Shown here piece by piece: positions 20,020 to 36,863 of a DNA stretch of 46,745 bases. The notes under the pieces were generated by a model. That model was not told the origin of the DNA. It searched no databases and saw only the letters and a program-made list of their open reading frames with translations. Within the stretch, counting starts at the first letter, position 1; every line of letters begins with the position of its first letter. The DNA is from an uncultured Oscillospiraceae bacterium (lineage in GTDB: Bacteria; Bacillota; Clostridia; Oscillospirales; Ruminococcaceae). Location: the NCBI GenBank assembly GCA_949291395.1, contig CASEVW010000114.1, positions 1 to 46,745 on the forward strand, in the 5' to 3' direction. The translations under genes and the position numbers were made by a program.

Positions 20020-20048
20020 TTGTCAAGAAGGTAACGGGGTGTTATACT
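20020..20048 (+). promoter_or_regulatory. Promoter of the purine-catabolism cluster
   Basis: TTGTCA, 17 bp, TATACT. It gives a leader of about 350 nt before ssnA, containing three T-rich hairpins and two identical RNA cores. Confidence 0.78.
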
Positions 20049-20075
20049 GAATGCGTCGAGAAAAGTAATACTTTT

Positions 20076-20102: not shown

Positions 20103-20126
20103 TATCGAATTTATTGTCTGTTTTTT

Positions 20127-20220
20127 AACAACCAACTGTAACGGAGTGCTTCGCGCACGGGTTGGAATGGTACATAAAAACACCATTCACACGGTATTGT
20201 TACAATGTGGTTGTTTTTTT
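20127..20220 (+). promoter_or_regulatory. Tandem RNA switch, module 1 (aptamer-like core plus terminator)
   Basis: State A: P1 (CCAAC 20132-20136 with GTTGG 20161-20165) encloses the core TGTAACGGA, hairpin GTGC-TTCGC-GCAC, and GG. State B: AACAACCA (20127-20134) pairs with TGGTTGTT (20208-20215), and TGTAAC (20137-20142) of the core pairs with GTTACA (20199-20204), making a 14-bp stem followed by TTTTT. The two states exclude each other. A GAATGGT/ACCATTC hairpin (20165-20188) lies in the loop of state B. This is a riboswitch or antiterminator layout; ligand or protein unknown. Confidence 0.68.
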
Positions 20221-20246
20221 GTAGCCTTTTTATCGGATCCAAAAAG

Positions 20247-20345
20247 AACGGCTGTAACGGAGTGCTTCGCGCACGGGCCGCTGAAAAAACACCGCGTTTT
20301 CACACGCTGTTTTTTGCGCGCTTTTCCGCCACAGCCGTTTTTTTG
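20247..20345 (+). promoter_or_regulatory. Tandem RNA switch, module 2 (same core, different P1 and terminator)
   Basis: The 24-nt core at 20253-20276 is identical to module 1, but P1 is now CGGC (20249-20252) with GCCG (20277-20280): pairing kept, sequence changed. The competing terminator uses AACGGCTGT (20247-20255) with ACAGCCGTT (20331-20339), followed by TTTTT, and GGA of the core can add pairs with TCC. An extra hairpin (AAAAAACA/TGTTTTTT, 20284-20315) fills the loop. The ssnA start lies 64 nt further on. Confidence 0.68.
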
Positions 20346-20408: not shown

Positions 20409-21746
20409 ATGTATCTGTTGGGAAATGGCCGTCTTGTCACACGGGATGAAGCGAACCCCTATCTGGAAAACGGCTGCGTTGCCATCGACGGCGAGCTGAT
20501 CCAGGCTGTGGGCACCACCGCCGAGCTGAAAGCCCTCTACCCCGAAGCCGAATTTATCGACGCCAAGGGCGGCGTGATCATGCCCGGCTTCATCAACGCC
20601 CACAACCACATCTATTCCGCCTTTGCCCGGGGCCTGAGCATCAAGGGCAACAACCCCTCCAACTTCCTGGAGGTGCTGGACCAGCAGTGGTGGACCATCG
20701 ACCGCAACCTGCTGCTGCCGGACACCAAGGCCAGCGCCGACGCCACCTATCTGGACTGCATCCTGAACGGCGTCACCACCATTTTTGACCACCACGCCAG
20801 CTACGGCGGCATCGAGGGCAGCCTGTTCGCCATCGCCGAGAGCGCCAAGGAGTTCGGCGTGCGCTCCAACCTGTGCTACGAGATCAGCGACCGGGACGGC
20901 GAGGACAAGATGAAGGCCGCCGTGAAGGAAAACGTGGACTTCATCAAATACGCCCAGGCAAACGGCGGCGATATGCTCACCGGCATGATGGGCATGCACG
21001 CCCCCTTCACCCTGTCCAATAAGACGCTGGAATACTGCGCCGCTGAAAAGCCCCAGGGCACCGGTTACCACATCCACGTGGCCGAGGGCATCGACGACCT
21101 GTACGACAGCCTGATGAAGTACAACAAGCGCCTGGTGTTCCGCCTGCACGATATGGACATCCTGGGCGACAAGACCATCTGCGGCCACTGCATCTACATC
21201 AACGAGGCCGAAATGGACCTGCTGAAGCACACCAACACCATGGTGGTGCACAACCCCGAAAGCAACATGGGCAACGCGGTGGGCTGCCCCCCCATCCTGA
21301 AGATGATGGAAAAGGGCCTGACCGTGGGCCTGGGCACCGACGGCTACACCAACGACATGACCGAAAGCTACAAGGTGGCCAACGTGCTGCACAAGCACAA
21401 CGCCTGCAAGCCCAACGTGGCCTGGGGCGAGATCCCCACCATGCTGTTTGAGAACAACCGGGCCATGGCCGGCCGCTTCCTCTCCAAGCCCATCGGCATC
21501 CTGAAAGAGGGCGCTTACGCCGACGTGATCGTCTCCGACTACGATCCCCTGACCCCCATGACCGCCGACAACATCAACAGCCACGTGCTGTTCGGCATGA
21601 CCGGCCGCAGCGTGGTGACCACCATCATCAACGGCGTGGTCAAGATGAAAGACCGCGAGCTGATCGGCATCGACAAGGAAGCCGTTCTGGCCCACTGCCG
21701 CGAGCAGAGCGCCGATCTGTGGAAGCGCATCAACGCCGGCCGCTGA
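20409..21746 (+). CDS. ssnA: SsnA-type amidohydrolase (purine-catabolism cluster)
   Basis: A cytoplasmic metal-dependent hydrolase of 445 aa, related to guanine and other amino-heterocycle deaminases. The start at 20409 has AAAAAGGAG upstream; the frame stays open further 5' but runs through the leader RNA. Metal ligands are seen in NAHNHIYS (His65, His67), YHIHVAE and CGHCIYIN, and in the GLGTDGYTND Asp. SsnA accompanies YgfK and Mo hydroxylases in clusters linked to anaerobic urate and purine breakdown. Its exact substrate is uncertain. First structural gene of the operon, behind the tandem RNA switch. Confidence 0.9.
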   Translation: MYLLGNGRLVTRDEANPYLENGCVAIDGELIQAVGTTAELKALYPEAEFIDAKGGVIMPGFINAHNHIYSAFARGLSIKGNNPSNFLEVLDQQWWTIDRNLLLPDTKASADATYLDCILNGVTTIFDHHASYGGIEGSLFAIAESAKEFGVRSNLCYEISDRDGEDKMKAAVKENVDFIKYAQANGGDMLTGMMGMHAPFTLSNKTLEYCAAEKPQGTGYHIHVAEGIDDLYDSLMKYNKRLVFRLHDMDILGDKTICGHCIYINEAEMDLLKHTNTMVVHNPESNMGNAVGCPPILKMMEKGLTVGLGTDGYTNDMTESYKVANVLHKHNACKPNVAWGEIPTMLFENNRAMAGRFLSKPIGILKEGAYADVIVSDYDPLTPMTADNINSHVLFGMTGRSVVTTIINGVVKMKDRELIGIDKEAVLAHCREQSADLWKRINAGR

Positions 21747-21834: not shown

Positions 21835-24810
21835 ATGAGCGATATCATGCGCCCGATCCCGTTTGGGGAACTGATGAACTGGGTCCTCACCGAGTACGCC
21901 TCCAAAGGCACCATCTTCGGTGTGAGCGACATCTACAAGCACACCAGCGGCAAGACCCTGCCCATCTTCACCGAGCAGGTGGAGACCCCCTTCGGCCCCG
22001 CCGCCGGCCCCCACACCCAGCTGGCCCAGAACCTGATCGCCGCTTACGCCGGCGGCAGCCGCTTCTTTGAGGTCAAGACCGTGCAGATCATCGACGGCGA
22101 GGACCTGCCCGTCTCCAAGCCCTGCATCAAGGCCGAGGACGAGTGCTACAACGTGGAGTGGAGCACCGAGCTGCGGGTGCCCCAGGCCTTTGACGAATAC
22201 GTAAAAGCCTGGTTCGCCCTGAAGCTGATCAGCCGCCTGTACGGCCTGGGCAGCGAGAACGGCTTTGTGTTCAACATGAGCGTCGGCTACGACCTGGCCG
22301 GCATCCAGAGCGAGAAGGTGGACCGCTACATCAACGGCATGCGGGACGCTTCCACCAGCGAGATCTGGGCCGAGTGCACCGCCTGGGCCAAGGCCAACCT
22401 GGACCGTCTGCCCGGCATCGACGCCGCTTACATCGACGCCATCAATCCCCATGTGTGCACCTCCATCACCCTGTCCACCCTGCACGGCTGCCCCCCGGAC
22501 GAGATCGAGCGCATCGCCACCTACCTCATCCGGGAAAAGAAGCTGAATACTTACATCAAGTGCAACCCCACCCTGCTGGGCTACGACTTCGCCCGCAAGA
22601 CCCTGGACGAGATGGGCTACGACTACATCGTGTTCGACGACCATCACTTCAAGGGCGACCTGCAGTTTGAGGACGCCATCCCCATGTTCAACCGCCTGCT
22701 GGACCTGGCTGCGGACACCGGCGTGGAGTTCGGCATCAAGCTGACCAACACCTTCCCCGTTACCATCGCTGCCGGCGAGCTGCCCGGCCAGGAGATGTAC
22801 ATGAGCGGCAAGAGCCTGTACCCCCTGTCCATCAGCCTGGCCCAGAAGGTGGAAAAGGAGTTCGGCGGCAAGCTGCGGGTATCCTACTCCGGCGGCGCGG
22901 ACCTGTTCAACATCGACCGCATCTTCGCCACCCACATCTGGCCCATCACCCTGGCCACCACCCTGCTGAAGCCCGGCGGATACAACCGCCTGCGCCCCAT
23001 GGCCGATAAGCTGGTGGCCATGGACTACGTGCCCTTCGCCGGCGTGGACATGGAGAAGCTGGACGCCCTGGTGGCCTCTGTTAAGACCGACGCCCACCAT
23101 GTGAAGCCCATCAAGCCCCTGCCCAGCCGCAAGATGAACAAGGACGTTCCCCTGATCGACTGCTTCGTGGCTCCCTGTGAGGAAGCCGGCTGCCCCATCC
23201 ATCAGGACATCCCCACCTACATCGACCTGGTGGGCCAGGGCAAGCTGGTGGAAGCGCTGCGGGTCATCTGCGAAAAGAACCCCCTGCCCTTCATCACGGG
23301 CACCATCTGCAGCCACCGCTGCATGACCAAGTGCACCCGTAACTTCTACGAGGAGAGCGTGCAGATCCGTGACGCCAAGCTGGCCGCCGCCGAGGGCGGT
23401 TACGACAGCTTCCTGGCCGAGCTGAAAGCCGCCGCTCCCCGCAGCGAAAAGGTGGCCATCATCGGCGGCGGCCCCGCCGGCATGGCAGCGGCCTACTTCC
23501 TGGCCCGGGCCGGCGCCAAGGCTACCATCTTTGAAAAGCGCAACGCCCTGGGCGGCATCGTAAAGCACGTCATCCCCGGCTTCCGCATCAGCGACGAAGC
23601 CATCGCCAAGGACGCCGCCCTGCTGGAGAAGCTGGGCGTGGAAGTGAAGCTGAACACCACCGTGGCCGATCCCGCCGCGCTGCGCAAGGAAGGCTTCACC
23701 CATGTGATCCTGGCCGCCGGCGCCTGGAACCACGGTTCCCTCAAGCTGGAGGGCGGCGAGGCCCTGAACGTTCTGGAGTTCCTGGAGCGCCAGAAGAACG
23801 CCCCCGAGACCCTGGACCTGGGCAACGACGTGATCGTCATCGGCGGCGGCAACACCGCCATGGACGCCGCCCGTGCCGCTAAGCGCGCCGGCGCCGCCAA
23901 CGTGCGCCTGGTCTACCGCCGCAGCAAGCGCTACATGCCCGCCGACGAGGAAGAGCTGGAGCTGGCCCTGGCCGACGGCGTGGAGTTCTGCGAGCTGCTG
24001 GCTCCCGTGGCCCTGCGTGACGGCAAGCTGGTGTGCGACGTGATGCGCCTGGGCGAGCCGGACGCTTCCGGCCGCCGCAGCCCCGAGGCCACCGGCGAGC
24101 AGACCGAGCTGCCCGCTTCCTGCGTGATCGCCGCCATCGGCGAAAAGGTGGACACCGCCTACTTCCTCACCAGCGGCATCGCTGTGGACGAAAAGGGCAA
24201 GGCCAAGGTGAACGATAACTGCCAGGCCGACAACGGCATCTACGTGGTGGGCGACGCCAAGCGCGGCCCCGCCACCGTGGTGGAAGCCATCGCCGACGCC
24301 ACCAGCGCCGCCATGGACATCCTGAACAGCGCCGTGAAGGATCTGCCCTACACCGCCAGCGCCCAGGCCCTGAAAGCCAAGCGCAGCGCTCTGGCCGAGT
24401 ACGTGGACGCCAAGAGCGAGACCGGCCGCTGCCTGGGCTGCAGCGCCGTGTGCGAAAACTGCGTGGATGTCTGCCCCAACCGTGCCAACCTGGCCATCCA
24501 GGTGCCCGGCATGGCCAAGGAGCAGGTAGTGCACGTGGATAAAATGTGCAACGAGTGCGGCAACTGCGCCGTGTTCTGCCCCTACGCCAGCGCTCCCTAC
24601 AAGGATAAGTTCACCGTGTTCGCCTCCGAGGCCGACATGGCCGACAGCCAGAACCCCGGCTTCTGCGTGCTGGACGCTGCCGCCGGCAAGGTGAAGATCC
24701 GCCTGGGCGGCGAGGAATACGAGACCGTCCTGGCCCAGGATACCAAGACCTACGCGCCCCTGAAGGCTCTCATCGAGACCATCCTGCGGGACTACGCTTA
24801 CTGCCTGTGA
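21835..24810 (+). CDS. ygfK: YgfK-type Fe-S flavoprotein oxidoreductase
   Basis: A large cytoplasmic redox protein of 991 aa, once named putative selenate reductase subunit. Residues 1 to about 430 form a dihydroorotate-dehydrogenase-like region (TPFGPAAGPHTQLAQNL, then LHGCPPDEIERIATYL and YSGGADLFNID). A Cys-rich Fe-S segment starts near 448 (CEEAGCPIHQDIP). A GltD-like FAD/NAD(P)H domain begins near 539 (VAIIGGGPAGMAAAYFLARA) with a second dinucleotide fold at VIVIGGGNTAMDAARAA. Two 4Fe-4S motifs are near 866 (CLGCSAVCENCVDVCP) and 905 (CNECGNCAVFCP). It is presumed to reduce a purine-derived intermediate with NAD(P)H. AAAAAGGAG precedes the start. Confidence 0.92.
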   Translation: MSDIMRPIPFGELMNWVLTEYASKGTIFGVSDIYKHTSGKTLPIFTEQVETPFGPAAGPHTQLAQNLIAAYAGGSRFFEVKTVQIIDGEDLPVSKPCIKAEDECYNVEWSTELRVPQAFDEYVKAWFALKLISRLYGLGSENGFVFNMSVGYDLAGIQSEKVDRYINGMRDASTSEIWAECTAWAKANLDRLPGIDAAYIDAINPHVCTSITLSTLHGCPPDEIERIATYLIREKKLNTYIKCNPTLLGYDFARKTLDEMGYDYIVFDDHHFKGDLQFEDAIPMFNRLLDLAADTGVEFGIKLTNTFPVTIAAGELPGQEMYMSGKSLYPLSISLAQKVEKEFGGKLRVSYSGGADLFNIDRIFATHIWPITLATTLLKPGGYNRLRPMADKLVAMDYVPFAGVDMEKLDALVASVKTDAHHVKPIKPLPSRKMNKDVPLIDCFVAPCEEAGCPIHQDIPTYIDLVGQGKLVEALRVICEKNPLPFITGTICSHRCMTKCTRNFYEESVQIRDAKLAAAEGGYDSFLAELKAAAPRSEKVAIIGGGPAGMAAAYFLARAGAKATIFEKRNALGGIVKHVIPGFRISDEAIAKDAALLEKLGVEVKLNTTVADPAALRKEGFTHVILAAGAWNHGSLKLEGGEALNVLEFLERQKNAPETLDLGNDVIVIGGGNTAMDAARAAKRAGAANVRLVYRRSKRYMPADEEELELALADGVEFCELLAPVALRDGKLVCDVMRLGEPDASGRRSPEATGEQTELPASCVIAAIGEKVDTAYFLTSGIAVDEKGKAKVNDNCQADNGIYVVGDAKRGPATVVEAIADATSAAMDILNSAVKDLPYTASAQALKAKRSALAEYVDAKSETGRCLGCSAVCENCVDVCPNRANLAIQVPGMAKEQVVHVDKMCNECGNCAVFCPYASAPYKDKFTVFASEADMADSQNPGFCVLDAAAGKVKIRLGGEEYETVLAQDTKTYAPLKALIETILRDYAYCL

Positions 24811-24840: not shown

Positions 24841-26199
24841 GTGATCATCATTCAAAACGGCCAGCTGGTCAGCCCCTCGGGGCTGACCAGGGCCGACCTG
24901 GCGCTGGACGGCGGCAAGATCGTTGCCATCCAGCCCCACATCCAGCCGGGCAGCGGCGACACCGTGCAGGACGCATCGGGCTGCTATGTGTTTCCCGGCT
25001 TCATCGACGGGCACACCCATCTGGACATGGACAACGGCGTGACCACCACGGCGGACGACTTTGCCTCCGGCACCCGGGCCGCTGTCTGCGGCGGCACCAC
25101 CACCCTGGTGGACTTTGCCACCCAGGACAAGGGCGGCACCCTCAGCGAGGCCTTGGCTGCCTGGCACAAAAAGGCCGAGGGCAAAAGCAGCTGCAACTAC
25201 GCCTTCCACATGGCCATCACCGACTGGAACGAAGCGGTGAAAGCCGAGCTGCCCGCCCTGTTCCAGCAGGGCGTGACCAGCTTCAAGGCCTACATGGCCT
25301 ACGACGCCCTGAAAGTGAACGACGCCGAGCTGCTGGACATCCTCAGCGCCCTGAAGCCGCTGGGCGGCATCCTGGGCGTGCACTGCGAAAACGGCCAGCT
25401 GGTGAACGCGCTGCAGGCGCAGCAGAAAGCCCTGGGGCATTTCAGCCCCGCCGCCCATCCGGTCAGCCGGCCGGCGGAGGTGGAGGCCGAAGCCATCAAC
25501 CGGCTGTGCTATCTGGGCAAGCTGGCCGGCGCGCCGGTGCACGTGGTGCATCTGAGCACCGCCCTGGGCCTTGCCGAGATCCGGGCGGCCCGCAAAAACG
25601 GCGTGACCGTTTATGCCGAGACCTGCCCCCAATACCTGACCCTGGACGAAAGCCTTTACAAAGCCCCCGGCTTTGAGGGCGCAAAATATGTGATGAGCCC
25701 GCCGCTGCGTACCCCCGCGGACGTGCAGGCCCTGCGCAAGGCCGTGGCGGACGGCGAGATCGACACCATCGCCACCGACCATTGCAGTTACAACTTCAAA
25801 GGCCAGAAGGAGCTGGGCCTTGCGGACTTTACCAAGATCCCCAACGGCGGCCCCGGCATCGAGCACCGGCCCATGGTGGTATACACCAGCATGGTACAGT
25901 CCGGCGAGCTGGCCCTCACCGGCTTCTGCCGCCTGCTGGCGGAAGGCCCGGCCAAGCTGTTCGGCATGTACCCCCGCAAGGGCGTTCTGGCCGTGGGATC
26001 CGACGCGGACGTGACCATCTGGGATCCCCAGGCCAAGACCGTGATCACCGCGGCCCGCCAGCAGCAAAATGTGGACTACACCCCTTACGAGGGCTTTGCC
26101 GTGACCGGTATGCCGAAGGCCGTGTATGTGGGCGGGCAGCTTGCCGCCCAATACGGCCAGCCCACTGGTATCGTGGCCGGGTCCTATGTGAAACGATGA
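24841..26199 (+). CDS. hydA: Dihydropyrimidinase/D-hydantoinase-type ring amidohydrolase
   Basis: It opens cyclic ureides such as hydantoins or dihydropyrimidines. The 452-aa protein uses a GTG start 30 bp after ygfK. Ligands are His58 and His60 (GFIDGHTHLDMD), the carboxylated Lys149 (TSFKAYMAYD), His in LGVHCENGQL, VHVVHLSTA and the Asp of DTIATDHCSY. NGGPGIEHRPMVVYTSMVQS is typical of hydantoinases. In this setting the substrate is probably a ring-opened purine product, not a pyrimidine. The stop overlaps a possible upstream ATG of the next gene. Confidence 0.92.
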   Translation: MIIIQNGQLVSPSGLTRADLALDGGKIVAIQPHIQPGSGDTVQDASGCYVFPGFIDGHTHLDMDNGVTTTADDFASGTRAAVCGGTTTLVDFATQDKGGTLSEALAAWHKKAEGKSSCNYAFHMAITDWNEAVKAELPALFQQGVTSFKAYMAYDALKVNDAELLDILSALKPLGGILGVHCENGQLVNALQAQQKALGHFSPAAHPVSRPAEVEAEAINRLCYLGKLAGAPVHVVHLSTALGLAEIRAARKNGVTVYAETCPQYLTLDESLYKAPGFEGAKYVMSPPLRTPADVQALRKAVADGEIDTIATDHCSYNFKGQKELGLADFTKIPNGGPGIEHRPMVVYTSMVQSGELALTGFCRLLAEGPAKLFGMYPRKGVLAVGSDADVTIWDPQAKTVITAARQQQNVDYTPYEGFAVTGMPKAVYVGGQLAAQYGQPTGIVAGSYVKR

Positions 26200-26213
26200 A
26201 AGGAGCGGCCCCC

Positions 26214-28778
26214 ATGTATACCCTGTATGTGAACGGTATCGAGCATCATACCGACAAAAACGTCAAGCTGCTGGAATTCCTGCGGGAGGACCTGCGGCTC
26301 ACCAGCGTGAAAAACGGCTGCGGCGAAGGCGCCTGCGGCACCTGCACCGTCCTGGTGGACGGCAAAAAGGTGAAAGCCTGCGTGTTCACCACCGAAAAGC
26401 TGAACGGCAAGCACATCACCACCGTGGAAGGCCTGACCGAGCGGGAGCGCGCCGTTTATGTGTACGCTTTCGGCCAGACCGGCGCGGTACAGTGCGGCTT
26501 CTGCATCCCGGGCATGGTCATCAGCGCCAAGAGCCTGCTGGATGAAAACCTGGACCCCACCCGGGAAGAGGTGAAAAAGGCCATCCGGGGCAACATCTGC
26601 CGCTGCACCGGCTACGTGAAGATCGAGGAGGCCATCCTGCTGGCGGCCAAGATGTTCCGGGAGAACCTGCCCGTTCCCCAGGACGACAGCGAGGCCCGCA
26701 TCGGCGCCCACTTCCCCCGGGTGGACGTGGAGGAAAAGGTGCTGGGCACCGGCCTGTTCGTGGACGACATCCAGGTGCCCGGCATGATCTATGCCAAGGC
26801 CCTGCGCTCCAAGTACCCCCGCGCCCGGGTGGATAAGATCGACCTGACCCGGGCCCTGGCCCATCCCGACGTGGTGAAGATCCTCACCGCCAAGGACGTG
26901 CCCTTCAACAAGACCGGCCACATCATCCAGGACTGGGACGTGCTCATCGCCGAGGGCGATTGCACCCGGTACATCGGCGACGCCATCGTGCTGGTGGCCA
27001 CCCGCCACAAGGAGACCCTGGACGAGGTGCTAGGCCTGGTGGACGTGACCTACACCGAGCTGGAGCCCCTCACCGACCCCATCAAGGCCATGGCCCCCGA
27101 CGCGCCCAAGCTGCACGAAAAGGGCAACATCCTCACCAAGGAAGTGCTGCGGCGGGGCAATGCGGACCAGGTCATCGCCAATGCTCCCTATGTGGTGACC
27201 CACCACTACTCCACCCCCATGACCGACCATGCGTTCATGGAACCGGAATGCGCTATTGCCATGCCGGACGGCGACGGCGGACTTTTGCTTTACACCGGCA
27301 GCCAATCCGTGTATGATGAACAGAAGGAGATCTCCCGGATGCTCAAGCTGCCGCCGGAAAAGGTCCGCTGCCAGACCAAGCTGGTGGGCGGCGGCTTCGG
27401 CGGCAAGGAGGATATGAGCGTGCAGCACCACGCGGCGCTGATGGCCTGGGCCACCGGCCGCCCCGTCAAGGTGAAGTTCAGCCGGCAGGAGAGCCTGAAC
27501 ATCCACACCAAGCGCCACGCTATGGAGATGGATGTGACCACCGCCTGCGACGAGAACGGCAAGCTGCTGGCCATGAAGGCCACCCTCATTTCCGACTGCG
27601 GCGCCTACGCCAGCCTGGGCGGGCCGGTGCTGCAGCGCGCCTGCACCCACTGCGGCGGCCCCTACAACTTCCAGAACGTGGATATCACCGGTATCTGCGT
27701 ATACACCAACAACGTGCCCGGCGGCGCGTTCCGCGGCTTCGGCGTGACCCAAAGCTGCTTTGCCGCCGAGCTCAACCTGGACCTGCTGGCCGAAAAGGTG
27801 GGCATCAGCCCCTGGGAGATCCGCTGGCGCAACGCCATCCGCCCCGGCGACGTGCTGCCCAACGGCCAGATCGCCGGCCCGGACACCGGCTATGCCGAGT
27901 GCCTGGAAGCCGTAAAGGAAGCCTACGAGAGCAGCCCCTATGCGGGCATCGCCGGCTGCATGAAGAACAGCGGCGTGGGCGTGGGCCTGCCGGACATCGG
28001 CCGGTGCAGCCTGGCTGTGGTGGACGGCAAGGTGCACATCCGCACAAGCGCCGCCTGCATGGGCCAGGGCGTGGCCACCGTCTGCACCCAGATTGTGAAC
28101 GAGGTCACCGGCATCCGGCCGGAGCAGATCTTCCACGAGCGGGCCGACACGGCCATCACCCCCAACTCCGGCACCTCCACCGCTTCCCGTCAAACGGTGT
28201 TCTGCGGTGAGGCCACCCGCCGTGCCGCCGGCCTTTTGGCGGACGCCCTCACCTCCGGCCGCACCCTGGCGGACCTGGAAGGCGAGAGCTTCTACGGCGA
28301 GTACAGCGGCGTGACCGACCCCATGGGCAGCGACAAGCCCAACCCGGTCAGCCACGTGGCTTACGGCTATGCGGCCCAGGTGGTCATCATGGACGAAAAC
28401 AAAAAGGTGGTCAAGGTGGTGGCCGCCCACGACGTGGGCCGGGTGGTCAATCCCCAGGCCTGCTCCGGCCAGATCGACGGCGGCGTGGCCATGGGCCTGG
28501 GCTACGGCCTCACCGAGGACTTCAAGATGGAAAACGGCTATGTGAAGAGCAAGTACGGCACCCTGGGCCTGCTGCGGGCCACCGACGTTCCCCCCATTGA
28601 AGTCATCTTTGTGGAAAAGGGCACCCCGGACCAGAACACCTTCGGCGCAAAGGGCGTAGGCGAGATCTCGGCCATCCCCGCCGCTCCGGCAGCAGCCCAT
28701 GCGGCCTGGCGGGTGGACGGCCAGTTCCGCGACAAGCTGCCCATCTGCAACACCTTCTATAAGAAAGGAGCAACCTAA
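26214..28778 (+). CDS. xdh: Fused xanthine dehydrogenase, selenium-dependent molybdenum hydroxylase type
   Basis: It is predicted to hydroxylate or dehydrogenate purines such as xanthine. One chain of 854 aa combines the 2Fe-2S subunit and the molybdopterin subunit. Cluster Cys are C36, C41, C44, C56 and C94, C97, C129, C131. The Mo domain follows from about 165 with VLGTGLFVDDIQVPGM, GGGFGGKEDMSVQHHAAL, PGGAFRGFGVTQS, GQGVATVCTQ and GAKGVGEISAIPA, whose Glu is the catalytic base. No FAD subunit is encoded, so electrons probably pass to a partner such as YgfK. This length and fusion fit the Se-dependent XDH family; selenium would be a cofactor ligand, as no in-frame TGA exists. The ATG at 26214 has AAAGGAG upstream; 26196 is an alternative. 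Confidence 0.9.
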   Translation: MYTLYVNGIEHHTDKNVKLLEFLREDLRLTSVKNGCGEGACGTCTVLVDGKKVKACVFTTEKLNGKHITTVEGLTERERAVYVYAFGQTGAVQCGFCIPGMVISAKSLLDENLDPTREEVKKAIRGNICRCTGYVKIEEAILLAAKMFRENLPVPQDDSEARIGAHFPRVDVEEKVLGTGLFVDDIQVPGMIYAKALRSKYPRARVDKIDLTRALAHPDVVKILTAKDVPFNKTGHIIQDWDVLIAEGDCTRYIGDAIVLVATRHKETLDEVLGLVDVTYTELEPLTDPIKAMAPDAPKLHEKGNILTKEVLRRGNADQVIANAPYVVTHHYSTPMTDHAFMEPECAIAMPDGDGGLLLYTGSQSVYDEQKEISRMLKLPPEKVRCQTKLVGGGFGGKEDMSVQHHAALMAWATGRPVKVKFSRQESLNIHTKRHAMEMDVTTACDENGKLLAMKATLISDCGAYASLGGPVLQRACTHCGGPYNFQNVDITGICVYTNNVPGGAFRGFGVTQSCFAAELNLDLLAEKVGISPWEIRWRNAIRPGDVLPNGQIAGPDTGYAECLEAVKEAYESSPYAGIAGCMKNSGVGVGLPDIGRCSLAVVDGKVHIRTSAACMGQGVATVCTQIVNEVTGIRPEQIFHERADTAITPNSGTSTASRQTVFCGEATRRAAGLLADALTSGRTLADLEGESFYGEYSGVTDPMGSDKPNPVSHVAYGYAAQVVIMDENKKVVKVVAAHDVGRVVNPQACSGQIDGGVAMGLGYGLTEDFKMENGYVKSKYGTLGLLRATDVPPIEVIFVEKGTPDQNTFGAKGVGEISAIPAAPAAAHAAWRVDGQFRDKLPICNTFYKKGAT

Positions 28779-28780: not shown

Positions 28781-30112
28781 ATGGAGTCTTGTGCAAAAAC
28801 CTCTCCCTCTGAAAGCGCACTCTACACCCAAACCGGCATGCCGCCCCTTGGCAAAGCCATCCCCCTGGCCCTGCAGCACGTGGTGGCCATGGTGGTGGGC
28901 TGCATCACCATGCCCATGATCGTGGCCTCCACCGCGGGGGTCTCCCCCGCCGACCAGATCATCATGGTACAGGGCAGCCTTCTGGTGGCGGCCCTTGCCA
29001 TCCTGCTGCAAGCCTTTGGCGTCAAGGGCTTTGTGGGCAGCGGCCTGCCGGTGATGGTGGGCAGCGGCTTTGCTTTTCTGCCCACCCTGCGGGCGGTGGT
29101 GGAGCAGCACGGCATGGCCGGCATGGCCGGCGCTCAGATCGCCGGCGCCTGCCTTGGCATGATCGTGGGCCTGTGTTTTTCCAAGATCCGCTTTCTGTTT
29201 CCTCCCATCGTCACCGCCAGCGTAGTGCTGACCATCGGCATCTCGCTGTACGACACCGCCATCAACTACATGGCGGGCGGTTCGGCCTCTGATCCCAGCT
29301 ACGGCAGCGCCCGCAACTGGATCCTGGCCCTCATCACCCTGGCCACCGTGATCGTTTGCAGCCAGTTCTGCAAGGGCATGGTCAAGGCCAGCGCCACCCT
29401 CATCGGCATGCTGGTGGGGTACCTTGCCGCCCTGGCCATGGGCATGATCCACTTTACCGACGTGAGCAGCGCCGCCTGGGTGCAGCTGCCCGCCCCCTTC
29501 CACTTTGCTCCCGCCTTCAATCTGAACGCGGTCATCAGCCTGGGCATCGTGTTCATCGTGAACGCCGTGCAGGACATCGGCCAGTTTGAGGCCACCGCCA
29601 ACGGCGCTTTTGAACGGGAAGCCACCAGCCAGGAGATCACCGGCGGCGTCATCGCCAACAACCTGTGCAGCCTTTTGGGCGGCATCTTCGGCGGCGTGCC
29701 TGTGGCGGCCGCCGGCCAGAACGTGGGCATCGTTGTCACCACCAAGGTCATCAACCGGGTGGTCTTCGGCATCGCCGGCGGCGTGGTGGCCGTGGCGGCC
29801 CTGGTGCCCAAGCTCAGCGCCATCCTGATCACCATCCCCCAGCCGGTGCTGGGCGGCGCCACCATCACCGTGTTCGGCTCCATCGCCATGACCGGCGTTC
29901 GGATGCTCTCCCGCGAGGGCCTGAGCCCCCGCAGCGTGTTCATCGCCGGCCTGAGCGTGGCCATGGCGGTGGGCATCCCCCAGACCGCCAACGCCTTTGC
30001 CGGCTGCCCGGCCTGGGTGGGCCAGATCTTTGGCAACTCTGAAGTCATCGTGGTGGCCGTCACCGCGATCCTTTTAAACCTCATCCTTCCGAAAGAGAAA
30101 AAGGAGAACTGA
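28781..30112 (+). CDS. Xanthine/uracil permease family transporter (NCS2)
   Basis: A purine:H+ or Na+ symporter of 443 aa with about 12-14 hydrophobic segments. ALQHVVAMVVGCITMPMIVA at the N-terminus, GSGFAFLPTLRAVVEQHG, and VQDIGQFEATANGAFERE match the NCS2 substrate-binding helices; the VPVAAAGQNVGIVVTTKV loop is also typical. It begins 2 bp after the xdh stop, with AAAGGAG inside the end of xdh. The context argues for xanthine or urate import. Confidence 0.93.
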   Translation: MESCAKTSPSESALYTQTGMPPLGKAIPLALQHVVAMVVGCITMPMIVASTAGVSPADQIIMVQGSLLVAALAILLQAFGVKGFVGSGLPVMVGSGFAFLPTLRAVVEQHGMAGMAGAQIAGACLGMIVGLCFSKIRFLFPPIVTASVVLTIGISLYDTAINYMAGGSASDPSYGSARNWILALITLATVIVCSQFCKGMVKASATLIGMLVGYLAALAMGMIHFTDVSSAAWVQLPAPFHFAPAFNLNAVISLGIVFIVNAVQDIGQFEATANGAFEREATSQEITGGVIANNLCSLLGGIFGGVPVAAAGQNVGIVVTTKVINRVVFGIAGGVVAVAALVPKLSAILITIPQPVLGGATITVFGSIAMTGVRMLSREGLSPRSVFIAGLSVAMAVGIPQTANAFAGCPAWVGQIFGNSEVIVVAVTAILLNLILPKEKKEN

Positions 30113-30118: not shown

Positions 30119-31327
30119 ATGGAAACCTTCAAGATCGTTACTTACCCCCATCAGGAAGTCCCCGCCACCGACCTGTCCGCCTTCAGCGAGGCGGAAGCCA
30201 AAAAGGCCCACGACTTCCACGCCAGCTTTGACGTATACAGCGAGACCCCCCTCACCAGCCTGCCCGGCCTGGCCAAGGCCCTGGGCGTAAAGGAAGTGCG
30301 CATCAAGGACGAAAGCTACCGCTTCGGCCTGAACGCTTTCAAGGTGCTGGGCGGCAGCTACGCGCTGGGCCGTTACATCGCCAAGACCCTGGGTGAGAAC
30401 ATCGAAGATATGCCCGCTTCCCGCATCCTGTCTCAGGAAGTGAAGGAGAAGCTGGGCGAGGTGACCTTCGTCACCGCCACCGACGGCAACCACGGCCGGG
30501 GCGTTGCCTGGACCGCCAACCAGCTGGGTCAGCACTCTGTGGTCTACATGCCCAAGGGCAGCGCCCAGGAGCGGCTGGACAACATCCGCGCCGAGGGCGC
30601 GGATGCCTCCATCACCGACCTGAACTATGACGAAGCCGTCCGCCTGGCCAACAAACAGGCCGAGGAAAAGGGCTGGGTCATGGTGCAGGACACCGCCTGG
30701 GAAGGCTACACCGACATCCCCCTGTGGATCATGCAGGGCTACACCACCATGGGCTACGAGATCGTAAAGCAGCTGGAAAAAGAGGGCGCGGAAAAGCCCA
30801 CTCACCTGTTCCTGCAGGCGGGCGTTGGCAGCATGGCCGGCGCCATGGCTGGCTTCATCTCCAGCTACTACGGCGCTGAGCGTCCTTTCATCACCGTGGT
30901 GGAGCCGGAAAAGGCCAACTGCGTGTTCCGCACCGCGGAAGCCGCCGACGGCAAGCTGCACTTCGTCACCGGCGATATGGACACCATCATGGCGGGCCTG
31001 GCCTGCGGCGAGCCCTGCACCATCGGCTGGGAAGTGCTGAAAAACTGCGCTGACGCCTTCATCAGCTGCCCGGACTATGCGGCGGCGGACGGCATGCGCA
31101 TCCTGGCTGCCCCCACCGGCGGCGACAAGCCCGTTGTTTCCGGCGAAAGCGGCGCCGCCACCACCGGCTGCGTCTCCAACATCCTGCTGCGGCAGGATCT
31201 GGCCGAGCTGAAGGAGAAACTGCACCTGGACGAGAACAGCCGCATCCTCTTCATCAGCACCGAAGGCGACACCGACAAGGAAAACTACCGCAACGTGGTT
31301 TGGGGCGGCAAACACAGCCGTTTCTAA
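30119..31327 (+). CDS. ygeX: Diaminopropionate ammonia-lyase
   Basis: A PLP enzyme (402 aa) that splits 2,3-diaminopropionate into pyruvate and two ammonia. The fold II Lys is K75 in LNAFKVLGGSYALG; the general-base Asp is D122 in TATDGNHGRGVA. DTAWEGYTDIPLWIMQGYTT and GDKPVVSGESGAATTG (phosphate site) are family signatures. The start is 6 bp after the permease. In the urate-degradation gene set YgeX handles the diaminopropionate released from the purine skeleton. Confidence 0.95.
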   Translation: METFKIVTYPHQEVPATDLSAFSEAEAKKAHDFHASFDVYSETPLTSLPGLAKALGVKEVRIKDESYRFGLNAFKVLGGSYALGRYIAKTLGENIEDMPASRILSQEVKEKLGEVTFVTATDGNHGRGVAWTANQLGQHSVVYMPKGSAQERLDNIRAEGADASITDLNYDEAVRLANKQAEEKGWVMVQDTAWEGYTDIPLWIMQGYTTMGYEIVKQLEKEGAEKPTHLFLQAGVGSMAGAMAGFISSYYGAERPFITVVEPEKANCVFRTAEAADGKLHFVTGDMDTIMAGLACGEPCTIGWEVLKNCADAFISCPDYAAADGMRILAAPTGGDKPVVSGESGAATTGCVSNILLRQDLAELKEKLHLDENSRILFISTEGDTDKENYRNVVWGGKHSRF

Positions 31328-31481
31328 GCCTTCGTTCTCCCCTTACTTTCCCCTTTGTCCCGGCAGCGTATGTCTGATTCTCTCCCATTTCTCTTTCCAG
31401 GCGTCTGCCGCAGGCGAATTTTATGCGCTGGACGCCAAACTCCTTTCCAGACCGGCCGGGGCATCGCTTTCCTGGAGCCAT

Positions 31482-31511
31482 GCCCGCCCGCAACACTCCT
31501 TGCGGGCGGGC
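31482..31511 (+). other. Strong GC hairpin in the ygeX-ygeY spacer
   Basis: GCCCGCCCGCAA/TTGCGGGCGGGC with a CACTCC loop, perfect over 12 bp, with no T-run. The 287-bp spacer holds no ORF of note. An mRNA processing or stability element, or a barrier that changes gene dosage along the operon. Confidence 0.5.
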
Positions 31512-31614
31512 GGGTCTCCCCTTTCCCCATGGGTACCCGGCAGGCCCTGCCTGCCTCTTACATAAACCGATCCGATCCCATCGTTTTTTATCCAGATATC
31601 AGGAGGATATTACT

Positions 31615-32799
31615 ATGCTCAATCAGGAACAGCAGAACAATGTAGTGGCCCTGTGCCAGAAACTCATCCAGTCCCCCAGCTACAGCGGCCACGAAGACGG
31701 CGTTGTGGCCCGTTTGAAGGAATTTTTCGAGGCCAACGGCTTTGACAGCGTCCATGTGGACCGCTACGGCAACGTGATCGGCTGCATCAAGGGCAACCGT
31801 CCCGGCCCCCGCCTGCAGTTCGACGGCCACATCGACACCGTGCCCGTGGAAGACGCTTCCAAGTGGGATCACGATCCCTTTGCCGCCGAGATCGTGGACG
31901 GCAAGATCTACGGCCGCGGCACCTCTGACATGAAGGGCGCCGTTGCCGCCATGGCCTGCGCCGCCGCCAACTTTGCCAAGGAGACCAACCGCGACTTCGC
32001 CGGCGAGATCTACGTGGCCGGCGTGGTGCACGAGGAGTGCTTCGAGGGCGTTGCCGCCCGCGAGATCAGCGCCTACGTCAAGCCGGACTATGTGGTCATC
32101 GGCGAGGCCAGCCAGCTGAACCTGAAGATCGGCCAGCGGGGCCGCGCCGAGATCGTTGTGGAGACCTTCGGCAAGCCCTGCCACAGCGCCAACCCGGAAA
32201 AGGGCATCAACGCCGTGTACAAGATGGCCAAGGTCATCGAGGCCATCCGCACCCTGGAGCCCACCCATCACCCCGTGCTGGGCGACGGCATCCTGGAGCT
32301 GACCGACATCAAGTCCGCCCCGTACCCCGGCGCTTCCGTTGTGCCCGAGTACTGCCGCGCCACCTATGACCGCCGCCTGCTGGTGGGCGAGACCAAGGAG
32401 AGCGTGCTGGCTCCCATCAACGCCCTGCTGGAAAAGCTGATGGCCGAGGACCCCGAGCTGAAGGTAAAGGCCAGCTACGCCGTGGGCAAAGAGATGTGCC
32501 ACACCGGCAACGAGATCGAGGGCGAGCGCTTCTTCCCCGGCTGGCTGTACGATGAGAACGACGACTTCGTGCAGGCTGTTTACGGCCAGCTGAAGGAGAT
32601 GGGCTACGACCCCACCATCACACAGTACAACTTCTGCACCAACGGCAGCCACTATGCGGGCGAGGCCGGCATCAAGACCTTCGGCCTTGGACCCAGCCGT
32701 GAGAACCTGGCCCACACCATCAACGAGTACATCGAGATCGACCAGCTGGTCAAGGTCTGCGACTGCTACACCGGCGTGATGAAGGCCCTGCTGAAATAA
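31615..32799 (+). CDS. ygeY: YgeY-type M20 family metallohydrolase
   Basis: A Zn-dependent deacylase/peptidase-like enzyme of 394 aa. The ATG at 31615 follows AGGAGG; an in-frame extension to 31423 passes through a hairpin and is rejected. The metal site shows DGHIDTVP (His72, Asp74), GRGTSDMKGA and VVHEECFEG; GRAEIVVETFGKPCHSANP is the dimerisation-domain His. YgeY always travels with YgeX and is implicated in releasing diaminopropionate or a related acid from an N-acyl or carbamoyl precursor. Confidence 0.92.
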   Translation: MLNQEQQNNVVALCQKLIQSPSYSGHEDGVVARLKEFFEANGFDSVHVDRYGNVIGCIKGNRPGPRLQFDGHIDTVPVEDASKWDHDPFAAEIVDGKIYGRGTSDMKGAVAAMACAAANFAKETNRDFAGEIYVAGVVHEECFEGVAAREISAYVKPDYVVIGEASQLNLKIGQRGRAEIVVETFGKPCHSANPEKGINAVYKMAKVIEAIRTLEPTHHPVLGDGILELTDIKSAPYPGASVVPEYCRATYDRRLLVGETKESVLAPINALLEKLMAEDPELKVKASYAVGKEMCHTGNEIEGERFFPGWLYDENDDFVQAVYGQLKEMGYDPTITQYNFCTNGSHYAGEAGIKTFGLGPSRENLAHTINEYIEIDQLVKVCDCYTGVMKALLK

Positions 32800-32879: not shown

Positions 32880-32909
32880 CACCCATTGACAGAAAGTGTG
32901 AAGATAACA

Positions 32910-34502
32910 ATGTCTACTCTGCTTATCAAAAACGGCCGCATCATCGACGGCACCGGCGCCGCCGGCTTTGACGGCGACGTGCTGGTGAAGGACGGCAAGA
33001 TCGCCGCCATCGGCACCGTGACCGAAAGCGCCGACCAGGTGATCGACGCCTCCGGCCTGGTGGTGGCCCCCGGCTTTATCGACACCCACAGCCACAGCGA
33101 CCTGGACGTGCTGCTGCGGCCCCAGGTTCTGCCCAAGATCATGCAGGGCATCACCACCGAGCTGCTGGGCCAGGACGGCGTGTCCATGGCGCCGCTGCCG
33201 GTGCAGTACATCAGCCCCTGGCGCAAAAACCTGGCCGGCCTGGACGGCGACTCCGACGAGATCGACTGGACCTACGAGACCACCGAAAATTACTTAAAGA
33301 TGATCGAGGCGGCCCACCCCGGCCTGAACGAGATGTATCTTGTGCCCCACGGCAACATCCGCATGGAGGCTATGGGCCTGGACAACCGGCTGCCCACCGA
33401 CGAAGAGATCGAAAAGATGAAAGCCATCACCCGCCGGGAGATGGAAGCCGGCGCCATGGGCCTTTCCACCGGCCTGATCTACATCCCCTGCGCCTACTCC
33501 GAGAGCAAGGAGATCATCGAGATGTGCAAGGTGGTGGCGGAATACGACGGCGTGTTCGTCATCCACCAGCGCAGCGAGGCCGACACCATCCTGGACAGCA
33601 TGAAAGAGGTCATCGAGATCGGCCGCAAGTCCGGCGCGAAGGTACATTGGAGCCACTTCAAGGTCTGCGGCAAGCAGAACTGGGATAAGATCGACGCCGT
33701 GCTGGAGCTGCTGGAGGAGGCCAAAAAAGAGGGCATCACCGTCAGCTTCGACCAGTACCCCTATGTGGCGGGCAGCACCATGATGGGCGCCATCCTGCCC
33801 CCCTGGGTGCACGACGGCGGCACCGACAAGGCGGTGGCCCGCCTGGCCGACCCGGAGCTGCGCAAAAAGATGGTCTACGATATGGAGCACGGCATCCCCG
33901 GCTGGGACAACTTCGTGGATTTTGCCGGCTTTGAAAACATCTACGTGACCAGCGTAAAGACCGAACAGAACGCCGACGCGGTGGGCCTGTCCATCGTGGA
34001 ACTGGCCGAAAAGCGGGGCACCGACCCCTACACCGCCGCCTTCGATTTGCTGATGCAGGAGGAGAACGCCGTGGGCATGGTGGACTTCTACGGCATCGAA
34101 GAGCACGTGAAGCGTTTTATGATGCGCCCCGAGATGAACGCCTGCACCGACGGCCTGCTCTGCCCGGGCAAGCCCCATCCCCGGCTGTACGGCAGCTTCG
34201 TGCGCATCCTGGGCAAGTATGTGCGGGAAGAAAAGCTGATGAGCCTGGAACAGGCCATCTACAAGATGACCGGCAAGCCCGCCAGCGTGCTGCGCCTGGC
34301 CGACCGTGGCCAGCTGAAAGAGGGCAACTGGGCCGACATCACCATTTTTGATGCCGCCACCGTGGCCGACAAGGGCACCTTTGTGGACCCCATCCAGTTC
34401 CCGGAAGGCATCGCCTACGTGATCGTGAACGGCGCTGTGGCCGTGGACCACGGCAAGCACACCGGCGCGTTGAACGGCCAGGTGATCCGCCACAAAAAGT
34501 AA
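32910..34502 (+). CDS. N-acyl-D-amino-acid deacylase-type amidohydrolase
   Basis: A metal hydrolase of 530 aa resembling D-aminoacylase. APGFIDTHSHSDLD supplies His60 and His62; GAMGLSTGLIYIPC, IHQRSEAD, VHWSHFKVCG and PHPRLYGSF (late His) match the family. The ATG at 32910 is used; the ribosome site (GTGAAG) is weaker than its neighbours, and a TTG at 32886 is possible. In this cluster it may act on an N-acyl or N-carbamoyl amino acid made from purines. It sits behind a terminator-like hairpin and before another. Confidence 0.85.
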   Translation: MSTLLIKNGRIIDGTGAAGFDGDVLVKDGKIAAIGTVTESADQVIDASGLVVAPGFIDTHSHSDLDVLLRPQVLPKIMQGITTELLGQDGVSMAPLPVQYISPWRKNLAGLDGDSDEIDWTYETTENYLKMIEAAHPGLNEMYLVPHGNIRMEAMGLDNRLPTDEEIEKMKAITRREMEAGAMGLSTGLIYIPCAYSESKEIIEMCKVVAEYDGVFVIHQRSEADTILDSMKEVIEIGRKSGAKVHWSHFKVCGKQNWDKIDAVLELLEEAKKEGITVSFDQYPYVAGSTMMGAILPPWVHDGGTDKAVARLADPELRKKMVYDMEHGIPGWDNFVDFAGFENIYVTSVKTEQNADAVGLSIVELAEKRGTDPYTAAFDLLMQEENAVGMVDFYGIEEHVKRFMMRPEMNACTDGLLCPGKPHPRLYGSFVRILGKYVREEKLMSLEQAIYKMTGKPASVLRLADRGQLKEGNWADITIFDAATVADKGTFVDPIQFPEGIAYVIVNGAVAVDHGKHTGALNGQVIRHKK

Positions 34503-34630: not shown

Positions 34631-35473
34631 ATGTTCAAGATTTTGGAAAAGACCCCCTTGAACCCCACCGTGACCAAAATGGTCATCCACGCCCCGCTGG
34701 TGGCCAAAAAGGCCCAGCCCGGCCAGTTCATCATCTACCGCGCCAGCGAGGACGGCGAGCGTGTGCCCCTGACCATCGCTGACTACGACCGGGAAGCCGG
34801 CACCGTGACCATCATCTTCCAGATCGTGGGCGGTTCCACCATGGAGCTGAACGCCCTGAACGAGGGCGACTGCCTGGCGGACTTTGTGGGCCCCCTGGGC
34901 ACCCCCAGCCACCTGGACGGCCTGAAAAAGGTGGCCGTTGTGGGCGGCGGCGTGGGCTGCGCCATCGCCTACCCCATCGCCAAAAAGCTGCACCAGCTGG
35001 GCTGCGAGGTACACAGCATCGTGGGCTTCCGCAGCAAAGACCTGGTGATCTTGGAAGACGAGTTCAAGGCCTGTTCTGACAAACTGGTGATGATGACCGA
35101 CGACGGCAGCCATGGCCAGAAGGGCGTGGTGACCGCGCCCCTGGAAGAGCTGATCCAGAACGGTGAAAACTACGACGAGGTGATCGCCATCGGCCCGCTG
35201 GTGATGATGAAATTCGTCTGCCTGACCACCAAAAAGTACGGCGTAAAGACCACCGTTTCCATGAACCCCATCATGATCGACGGCACCGGCATGTGCGGCG
35301 GCTGCCGCCTGACCGTGGGCGGCGAGACCAAGTTCGCCTGCGTGGACGGCCCCGACTTTGACGGCCACCTGGTGGATTTTGACGAAGCCATGCACCGGGG
35401 CGCCATGTACCGGGACTTTGAAGCCCACGCCCGCGAGACCAGCTGCAATCTGCTGCACAAGGAGGTAAAGTAA
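34631..35473 (+). CDS. nfnA: NfnA/GltA-associated ferredoxin-NADP reductase-like subunit
   Basis: The small flavin/Fe-S subunit (280 aa) of NADH-dependent reduced ferredoxin:NADP oxidoreductase or a sulfide dehydrogenase-like complex. An FNR-type FAD region (KAQPGQFIIYRASEDGERVP, residues 32-51) is followed by a nucleotide fold (VAVVGGGVGCAIAYPIAKKL) and a C-terminal Cys cluster (MCGGCRL, then FACVDGPDFDGHLVDFD). It begins after AAAGGAG and is separated by only 1 bp from gltA/nfnB, the usual pair. It probably balances NADH, NADPH and ferredoxin for the redox steps of the upstream cluster. Confidence 0.92.
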   Translation: MFKILEKTPLNPTVTKMVIHAPLVAKKAQPGQFIIYRASEDGERVPLTIADYDREAGTVTIIFQIVGGSTMELNALNEGDCLADFVGPLGTPSHLDGLKKVAVVGGGVGCAIAYPIAKKLHQLGCEVHSIVGFRSKDLVILEDEFKACSDKLVMMTDDGSHGQKGVVTAPLEELIQNGENYDEVIAIGPLVMMKFVCLTTKKYGVKTTVSMNPIMIDGTGMCGGCRLTVGGETKFACVDGPDFDGHLVDFDEAMHRGAMYRDFEAHARETSCNLLHKEVK

Positions 35474-35474
35474 T

Positions 35475-36863
35475 ATGCCCAATATGGAACCCAACAAATG
35501 CCCCATGCCGGTGCAGGACCCCGTTCTGCGCAGCCGGAATTTTGACGAAGTAGCCCTGGGCTACACCCCCGAGATGGCCGTGAACGAGGCCAAGCGCTGC
35601 CTTGGCTGCAAGCACAAGCCCTGCCAGAGCGGCTGCCCGGTGGGCATCGACATCCCCGCCTTTGTGAGCAAGGTGGCCGAAGAGGACTTTGAGGGCGCTT
35701 ACCAGGTGCTCAGCGCTTCCAGCGCCCTGCCCGCCGTGTGCGGCCGGGTATGCCCCCAGGAGACCCAGTGCGAGGGCAAATGCGTGCGGGGCATCAAGCA
35801 CGAATCGGTGGGCATCGGCCGGCTGGAACGCTTTGTGGCGGACTGGCACCGGGAGCATGTTACCGCCGCCCCCGCCCTGCCTCAGCAGAACGGCCATAAG
35901 GTGGCCGTCATCGGCTCCGGCCCCAGCGGCCTGACCGCCGCCGGCGACCTGGCCAAGCTGGGCTACAAGGTCACCGTGTACGAAGCGCTGCACACCCCCG
36001 GCGGCGTACTGGTGTACGGCATCCCCGAGTTCCGCCTGCCCAAGGAGATCGTGCGCAAGGAGATCGAGGGCCTGAAAGCCCTGGGCGTGGACGTGGAGAC
36101 CGACGTGGTCATCGGCCGCACCCTCACCATCGACGAGCTGTTCGAGATGGGCAACGAAGCGGTGTTCATCGGTTCCGGCGCGGGCCTGCCCCGGTTCATG
36201 GGCATCCCCGGCGAAAGCCTGAACGGCGTGTACTCCGCCAACGAGTTTTTGACCCGCATCAACCTGATGAAGGCCTACAAGCCCGATTCCAAGACTCCCA
36301 TCCAGCGAGCCAAGAACGTGGCCATCGTGGGCGGCGGCAACGTGGCCATGGACGCTGCCCGCTGCGCTAAGCGGCTGGGCGCTGAAAACGTGTACATCGT
36401 CTACCGCCGGGGCATGGAAGAGCTGCCCGCCCGCAAGGAAGAAGTGGAGCACGCCGAGGAAGAGGGCATCATCTTCAAGACCCTTTCCAACCCCATCGAA
36501 GTGCTGGGCGATGACAAGGGCTATGTGAAGGGCCTGGTCTGCCAGGAGATGGAGCTGGGCGAGCCGGACGCCTCCGGCCGCCGCCGTCCCGTGGCGAAAG
36601 AGGGCTGTACCTTCACCCTGGACGTGGACTGCATGGTCATGTCCATCGGCACCAGCCCCAACCCGCTGATCCGCTCCACCACTCCCGGCCTGGAGACCGA
36701 TAAGCACGGCTGCATCATCACCAACGGCAGCGACGGCCTGACCACCCGCACCGGTGTATACGCCGGCGGCGACGCGGTGACCGGCGCGGCCACCGTTATC
36801 CTGGCCATGGGCGCTGGCAAGGAAGCGGCCAAGGCCATTGATGAGTACATTCGCAACAAGTAA
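35475..36863 (+). CDS. gltA: NfnB / NADPH-dependent glutamate synthase small-subunit-like protein (GltA)
   Basis: The large NADP/FAD subunit, 462 aa. Residues 42-54 hold the Cys pattern CLGCKHKPCQSGC, with a second set in VCGRVCPQETQCEGKC. The FAD fold starts at VAVIGSGPSGLTAAGDLAKL and the NADP fold at VAIVGGGNVAMDAARCA; YAGGDAVTGAATVILAMGAG closes the FAD domain. Often annotated glutamate synthase, but next to nfnA an electron-bifurcating transhydrogenase is more likely. It shares the GltD module with YgfK in the same cluster. A copy of its last 14 codons recurs 109 bp after its stop. Confidence 0.93.
   Translation: MPNMEPNKCPMPVQDPVLRSRNFDEVALGYTPEMAVNEAKRCLGCKHKPCQSGCPVGIDIPAFVSKVAEEDFEGAYQVLSASSALPAVCGRVCPQETQCEGKCVRGIKHESVGIGRLERFVADWHREHVTAAPALPQQNGHKVAVIGSGPSGLTAAGDLAKLGYKVTVYEALHTPGGVLVYGIPEFRLPKEIVRKEIEGLKALGVDVETDVVIGRTLTIDELFEMGNEAVFIGSGAGLPRFMGIPGESLNGVYSANEFLTRINLMKAYKPDSKTPIQRAKNVAIVGGGNVAMDAARCAKRLGAENVYIVYRRGMEELPARKEEVEHAEEEGIIFKTLSNPIEVLGDDKGYVKGLVCQEMELGEPDASGRRRPVAKEGCTFTLDVDCMVMSIGTSPNPLIRSTTPGLETDKHGCIITNGSDGLTTRTGVYAGGDAVTGAATVILAMGAGKEAAKAIDEYIRNK

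Follow-up and report, generated by a model that had tools for sequence, protein, structure and literature searches.

The leader of the ssnA operon in a 46,745-nucleotide contig from an uncultured Oscillospiraceae bacterium (CASEVW010000114.1, analysed over its whole length and referred to below as the window) contains two tandem members of the known family ssnA RNA (Rfam RF03031), which probably act as a tandem riboswitch that responds to uric acid or a closely related oxopurine and turns the operon ON by blocking terminators. Both copies were recovered by cmscan against Rfam 15 at full length (model positions 1-48) and above the gathering threshold of 37.3 bits. Copy 1 lies at 20126..20173 (+ strand, 44.5 bits) and copy 2 at 20242..20289 (+ strand, 49.5 bits), with E-values of 5.1e-9 and 1e-10 for the whole window. 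A preliminary description, made from the letters alone, had held that the core matches no known class; these scores overturn that statement, as they represent a strong match to a described family. The comparison of the leader (20000-20420) with all 4227 Rfam families at E ≤ 5 gave nothing except RF03031, and thus no match to the NMT1/xanthine, guanidine-II or preQ1 models that had been put forward for comparison. Rfam types RF03031 as cis-regulatory, and the label riboswitch is absent from the entry. The family was reportedly first described by Weinberg and colleagues in 2017, and full-text searches of an open-access collection showed, among the papers listed, none on its function or ligand.

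Direct reading of the sequence shows a 26-nt stretch, CTGTAACGGAGTGCTTCGCGCACGGG, at 20136-20161 and again at 20252-20277, a spacing of 116 nt; the identical 24-nt core recorded earlier is contained within this repeat and is confirmed at that spacing. The stem P1 differs in sequence between the copies and is intact in both, as had also been observed, being formed by CCAAC/GTTGG at 20132-20136/20161-20165 in copy 1 and by CGGC/GCCG at 20249-20252/20277-20280 in copy 2. P2 pairs 20146-20149 with 20155-20158 around the loop 20150-20154 in copy 1, and 20262-20265 with 20271-20274 around the loop 20266-20270 in copy 2. No RF03031 match beyond these two was found in the assembly (94.87% complete), and this, together with the Rfam E-values, argues that the repeat is not a product of chance. 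The isolated 38-nt cores did not fold better than shuffled sequences (z −1.03 and 0.04). Consequently, it is conservation, and not folding energy, that supports the core.

This conservation was followed in an alignment of 82 representatives (A1), part of which had been collected by a search pattern that fixes some core bases and leaves P1 free outside C-U-G. The core C-U-G-N-A-A-N-G-N-A-G-U-G ... C-N-C ... G-G-G is invariant in A1, in part as a result of selection by that pattern. The P1 pairs between columns 11-41 and 12-40 are formed in 82/82 sequences, as AU, GU, GC or UA and as GC, AU or GU, respectively; pair 10-42 is formed in 62/82, and P2 in 99.7% of cells. Overall, 96.8% of the cells are paired, with changes on both sides in 20 cells as compared to 2.8 in shuffles. 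The covariation score is 0.222 against 0.161 for shuffled alignments and ≤ 0.062 for slid versions, which also pair far less than the true register. Across the family, P1 is not kept past approximately three variable pairs, the next pair being formed in 79/157 leaders. Besides the model score, membership of the ssnA RNA family is supported by compensatory changes that preserve P1 and P2 (A1, n = 82) and, in the window, by a position upstream of ssnA.

In the window, the leader is preceded by a sigma-70-type promoter, TTGTCA-17-(TG)TATACT, at 20020..20048 (+ strand; one found against 0.7 expected by chance), whose −10 element TATACT is common to all seven aligned leaders; the transcript is expected to start near 20055. 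Intrinsic terminator 1 spans 20127..20221 (+ strand), with its T-run at 20214-20220. Its 5′ arm (20127-20134 and 20137-20142) is built from bases of P1 and the core in copy 1, and its 3′ arm is formed by 20199-20204 and 20208-20215. Intrinsic terminator 2 spans 20247..20344 (+ strand, T-run 20338-20344), its 5′ arm (20247-20255) overlapping P1 and core of copy 2 and its 3′ arm lying at 20331-20339. The sharing of the 5′ side of P1 and the start of the core with T-run terminators in both copies had been noted previously, and the strands agree. Terminator 1 furthermore displays a compensatory change at 20131/20211, A-U in the window and G-C in the six other aligned leaders.

When each copy was folded up to its own T-run, the terminator was the minimum-energy structure (copy 1, z −2.45, 3/200 shuffles as good; copy 2, z −3.73, 0/200 shuffles as good). 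The terminator probability was 0.64 for copy 1 and 0.97 for copy 2 without the aptamer, and 0 for both with the aptamer forced. By computed folding, each window copy thus has a complete expression platform of its own in which the aptamer excludes its terminator, and the earlier suggestion that folding of the core opposes termination twice in series is borne out at this level. The terminator and aptamer states were calculated at −26.5 and −20.0 kcal/mol for copy 1, and at −41.5 and −22.7 kcal/mol for copy 2. As both terminators outstabilize the aptamer state, the switch would have to work by timing during transcription, with the ligand acting before the 3′ arm is made.

An extra hairpin, AGTCGCAGATGCGGCT followed by a TTTTC T-run, is present at 20081-20106, downstream of the promoter and upstream of copy 1. 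The six aligned relatives lack this stretch, which could be an insertion or else a third, weak stop signal. By eye, the region separating mocA from the ssnA leader shows a strong hairpin at 19794-19837, with perfectly matched arms and a T-run behind them; it is probably the terminator of the upstream genes.

In the mechanism proposed here, each element would constitute a complete transcriptional ON switch, comprising a small aptamer with P1, an asymmetric internal loop of 8 nt and P2, in which an intrinsic terminator draws its 5′ arm from the 5′ strand of P1 and the core. With no ligand bound, this terminator would form and RNA polymerase would stop. Conversely, a ligand that holds the emerging aptamer would block the terminator, and the ssnA-ygfK-hyuA-xdhD-permease-ygeX-ygeY operon would be transcribed. 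With two such elements in series both gates must open, which may reduce basal expression and steepen the response.

The coupling of aptamer and terminator was further studied in 157 leaders, i.e. a set of 158 minus one false regex match lacking a real P2 (L189 at 7831). Many of these leaders are close relatives and hence not independent; the 158-leader set omits 13 pattern matches in unrelated bacteria, and nine sub-cut-off matches (L024-L026, L046-L051), in which the full core was not seen on reading, were left out. A candidate terminator-like hairpin is present in 151/157 leaders; its probability without the aptamer is ≥ 0.5 in 105/151 and < 0.5, hence uncertain, in the remaining 46. The terminator shares bases with the aptamer, and is excluded by it, in 33/105, and shares none in 72/105. 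On forcing the aptamer in these 72, terminator probability fell at least two-fold in 33, fell by 10-50% in 13, stayed within 10% in 25 and rose more than 1.1-fold in one. Coupling of the aptamer fold to an expression platform is thus seen in both window copies and 66/105 leaders, and not seen in 25/105.

For the shuffle control, the aptamer-to-T-run stretch of 152 leaders, L189 at 7831 still among them, was shuffled three times each, 456 trials in total. With either probability at ≥ 0.5 as the criterion, 43 terminators arose in the shuffled set. Of these, 17 use bases that also belong to the aptamer and 26 do not; one of the 26 falls and 11 rise two-fold. By the same criterion the real leaders gave 106 terminators, 33 with and 73 without such shared bases, and of these 73, 33 fall and none rises two-fold. 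The terminator number favours the real set, as the control used one T-run per leader and the real leaders the best of all T-runs. The share of direct overlap is not enriched (33/105 real versus 17/43 shuffled). What stands above the control is terminator abundance, partly helped by the choice of T-run, and the one-sided response.

Several designs were recognized by eye among the leaders. In design (a), that of the window, the 5′ strand of P1 and the core are part of the terminator. In (b), a strand after the aptamer pairs upstream or with the 5′ arm of the terminator (L094, terminator probability 0.122 with and 0.896 without the aptamer); in (c), the terminator takes in the 3′ strand of P2 and the GGG (L111, 0 with and 0.626 without), and in (d) the 3′ strand of P1 (L106, 0 with and 0.965 without). 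An outer stem plus antiterminator, proposed by eye for Oscillibacter leaders like L107, which looks like L094, is not borne out for L107, the terminator probability being 0.966 with and 0.993 without the aptamer. In these folding models the effect of the aptamer, where present, is ON. Since the aptamer excludes or weakens terminators in many relatives, with the reverse being rare, and both window copies exclude their own terminator, the element is best read as an ON switch, in the window predicted to form a serial double gate.

RF03031 matches over the cut-off were found in 22/396 genomes from the family of the window, 16/394 from its order, 1/391 in a class-wide draw (the genome of the window itself) and 103/400 from a sister family; the four draws share some of their genomes. 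When named contigs were scanned with a sequence pattern, at least 119 stretches were obtained, with 121 core matches among those listed. The listed matches are mostly in records named Oscillospiraceae or Clostridia, and include the genera Oscillibacter, Flavonifractor, Intestinimonas, Dysosmobacter, Pseudoflavonifractor, Anaerofilum, Fournierella and Gemmiger. Thirteen of the 121, in unrelated bacteria such as Gammaproteobacteria, Streptomyces, Variovorax, Hymenobacter and Chlorobiaceae, were dropped, the adjoining sequence giving no match to 11 window proteins.

Tandem copies, on the same strand and within 180 nt, occur in 7/22 genomes of the window's family (G000, G025, G137, G207, G306, G350 and G352), five belonging to the genus of the window and one each to two other genera; the other RNA-matching members of that genus, G261 and G347, have a single copy. 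No tandem was observed in the 103 matching genomes of the sister family, the multi-copy genomes of which (G1372, G1437 and G1463) carry their copies at separate places. These counts derive from searches with a stricter filter, in which weak copies may be lost. In the aligned tandem relatives L207, L208, L209 and L212, P1 of copy 1 is likewise CCAAC/GTTGG, and P1 of copy 2 differs from it. At L103:1122-1173, the second of two tandem copies has one P2 pair broken (GTGC/GCAA) and, standing behind an intact first copy, is possibly decaying.

The genes downstream confirm, by family-model scores, the purine-catabolism cluster named in the preliminary description. All are on the + strand. The first gene of the operon, ssnA (putative aminohydrolase SsnA, 20409..21746; NF005540, 679.8 bits, cut-off 444), starts 120 nt past copy 2, and is followed by ygfK (21835..24810; TIGR03315, 1374.6 bits, cut-off 835.3) and a hyuA-like dihydropyrimidinase/hydantoinase gene (24841..26199; TIGR02033, 571 bits, cut-off 393.25). 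An xdhD-like gene for a fused molybdenum hydroxylase follows at 26196..28778, its frame open from 26196 to the stop. It was named via a homologue at L204:712-2592, which is 66% identical and contains Fer2, Fer2_2, Ald_Xan_dh_C and MoCoBD_1 domains. Next come an NCS2 nucleobase permease (pbuX-like, 28781..30112; TIGR00801, 297.8 bits, cut-off 291.8; 367.5 against the pbuX model, under its cut-off of 414.15), diaminopropionate ammonia-lyase (ygeX/dpaL, 30119..31327; TIGR03528, 637.7 bits, cut-off 532.25), a ygeY-type hydrolase (31423..32799; NF009555, 524.4 bits, cut-off 321) and an Amidohydro_3 protein (32886..34502; PF07969). The genes from ssnA through ygeY presumably form one transcript. An FAD/NAD-binding protein and a glutamate-synthase-like subunit at 34631..36863 make up a pair which we take to be nfnAB-like, and homologues of this pair have an ssnA RNA of their own in Intestinimonas records. 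Just upstream of the leader, at 18766-19715, are genes for a small HTH_1 protein, presumably ModE-like, and a mocA-like cytidylyltransferase (below the curated cut-off), fitting the maturation of a molybdenum hydroxylase.

The association with ssnA extends well beyond the window. Among the listed core matches, 103/121 are situated 55-305 nt upstream of ssnA on the same strand. In a subset of 180 sister-family genomes, apparently the start of the 400-genome draw, ssnA is present in 54. An RNA match at E ≤ 0.001 was obtained for 42 of the 54 (over the cut-off in 39), and ssnA is found in every one of the 42 RNA-bearing genomes of the subset (Fisher p = 1.7e-30, a value that ignores relatedness). 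In the family of the window, 9/10 ssnA genomes have an RNA match at E ≤ 0.001. For both families together, the match is absent in 13/64 ssnA genomes. The 13 corresponding ssnA genes (L217-L229) have no RF03031 match in the upstream 450 nt, their 551-base upstream stretches gave three weak Rfam matches, all below gathering, and the core was not seen in the 270 nt inspected of each. By eye, some of these stretches resemble the terminal part of a different gene.

Additional ssnA RNA sites precede a hyuA-first operon (L198, whose contig is as long as that of L106), nfnAB-like pairs (L199, L200 and L202), an NCS2 permease followed by xdhD (L204) and a Bmp/PnrA-type lipoprotein (L206). The RNA hence marks a regulon and not one operon. 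At L124 and L139 the sequence ends before the gene. A good core with a terminator-like hairpin was also seen at L193, ~1739-1790 (− strand), where none of the window pathway proteins was matched in 1.8 kb downstream and no purine gene was recognized.

The regulated set can be compared with the reductive uric-acid pathway published in 2025. According to that report, XdhD reduces urate to yanthine, the ring of which is opened by YgfK and SsnA; the breakdown of yanthine is assigned to YgfK/SsnA/HyuA/YgeY/YgeX, and UacY belongs to the Pfam family Amidohydro_3 (PMC12507026). Judged against this account, the window operon comprises the published pathway genes plus a protein of the Pfam family of UacY, and the RNA-associated genes as a whole fit the reductive uric-acid pathway with likely helpers. 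Control of uptake, first step and breakdown by one ON switch would suggest a ligand from the substrate end, i.e. urate, yanthine or xanthine. Accordingly, uric acid itself or a closely related oxopurine from the pathway, either yanthine (2,8-dioxopurine) or xanthine, would be the most likely ligand. The notion of a small purine-sensing RNA, raised in the preliminary description, is strengthened by this gene set and falls short of proof.

A small-molecule ON riboswitch with the same mechanism, and in that respect overlapping the reading favoured here, could instead respond to another ligand, such as an intermediate further down the pathway (ureidomethyl-hydantoin or diaminopropionate), a different purine, or a signal related to a selenium or molybdenum cofactor. 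The intermediates of the pathway cannot be told apart by the associated genes alone, and the molybdenum hydroxylase in the regulated set, with the HTH_1 (presumably ModE-like) and mocA-like genes upstream, would suit a cofactor signal. Conversely, the sites at the NCS2 purine permease with xdhD and at the Bmp/PnrA-type lipoprotein represent uptake and first step, and thereby the substrate end, and we regard such other ligands as unlikely.

Less probable still is that the core is bound by a purine-sensing antiterminator protein (BglG/LicT-like, ANTAR-like or other), the RNA being a protein site rather than an aptamer. The layout resembles RAT/antiterminator sites, one CAT_RBD protein is encoded in the genome of the window, and an ANTAR protein was matched in 13/16 tested genomes. 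However, CAT_RBD matches are absent in 7/16 RNA-bearing genomes and ANTAR matches in 3/16, and the genome of the window itself lacks an ANTAR match. Two genomes, G706 (2 contigs, 100% complete) and G1376 (2 contigs, 97%), have the RNA and match neither domain, so BglG/LicT-type and ANTAR proteins are not required family-wide. A protein-bound antiterminator, as proposed earlier, might still involve a protein of another, unfamiliar class. A conserved leader hairpin without regulation, i.e. an RNA-stability element next to ordinary attenuators, agrees with the 25/72 non-overlapping leaders in which the aptamer has no effect on the terminator and is highly improbable given the unpaired core bases invariant in 82 representatives (some fixed by the collecting pattern), terminators in 106/151 real versus 43/456 shuffled leaders (subject to the T-run caveat) and the one-sided direction of the effect.

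Returning to the urate or oxopurine ON switch, we give an even chance to ssnA RNA representing a new class of riboswitches, one that is induced by uric acid or its reduction product yanthine and switches ON the whole reductive pathway (uptake, XdhD, YgfK, SsnA, HyuA and electron supply) in gut Oscillospirales-type bacteria, with a doubled, two-gate and low-leak form in Gemmiger-type bacteria. As the pathway was worked out biochemically in 2025 (PMC12507026), ssnA RNA becomes directly testable with a short list of candidate ligands. The interest lies in making an orphan family testable rather than in a new kind of thing. The degradation of uric acid by bacteria of the gut is relevant to gout, and a urate-responsive ON switch, if confirmed, would offer engineered strains a ready-made sensor.

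The window copies are similar to other ssnA RNAs (RF03031) in sequence core, in P1/P2 and in their place upstream of ssnA, and differ in being tandem and in having a terminator for each copy. The BglG/LicT RAT antiterminator is a small hairpin overlapping a terminator, as in ssnA RNA. That system is protein-dependent, whereas the RNA-binding domain it needs is unmatched in 7/16 ssnA-RNA-bearing genomes. Xanthine-I (NMT1) senses xanthine and uric acid and is found at purine-oxidation genes; it turns OFF genes of earlier steps, and its authors, in the accessible portion of their report, note no genes for degradation of oxidized purines under NMT1 (PMC7373994). For ssnA RNA, in contrast, the predicted targets are degradation genes and the predicted effect is ON; the window has no NMT1 match in Rfam. 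Pseudo-cooperative tandem riboswitches, in which the same class occurs twice as independent gates, likewise consist of two complete switches in series (PMC9481103), and the tandem form in the window, if the proposed mechanism is correct, would be a natural case of such control in the ssnA RNA class.
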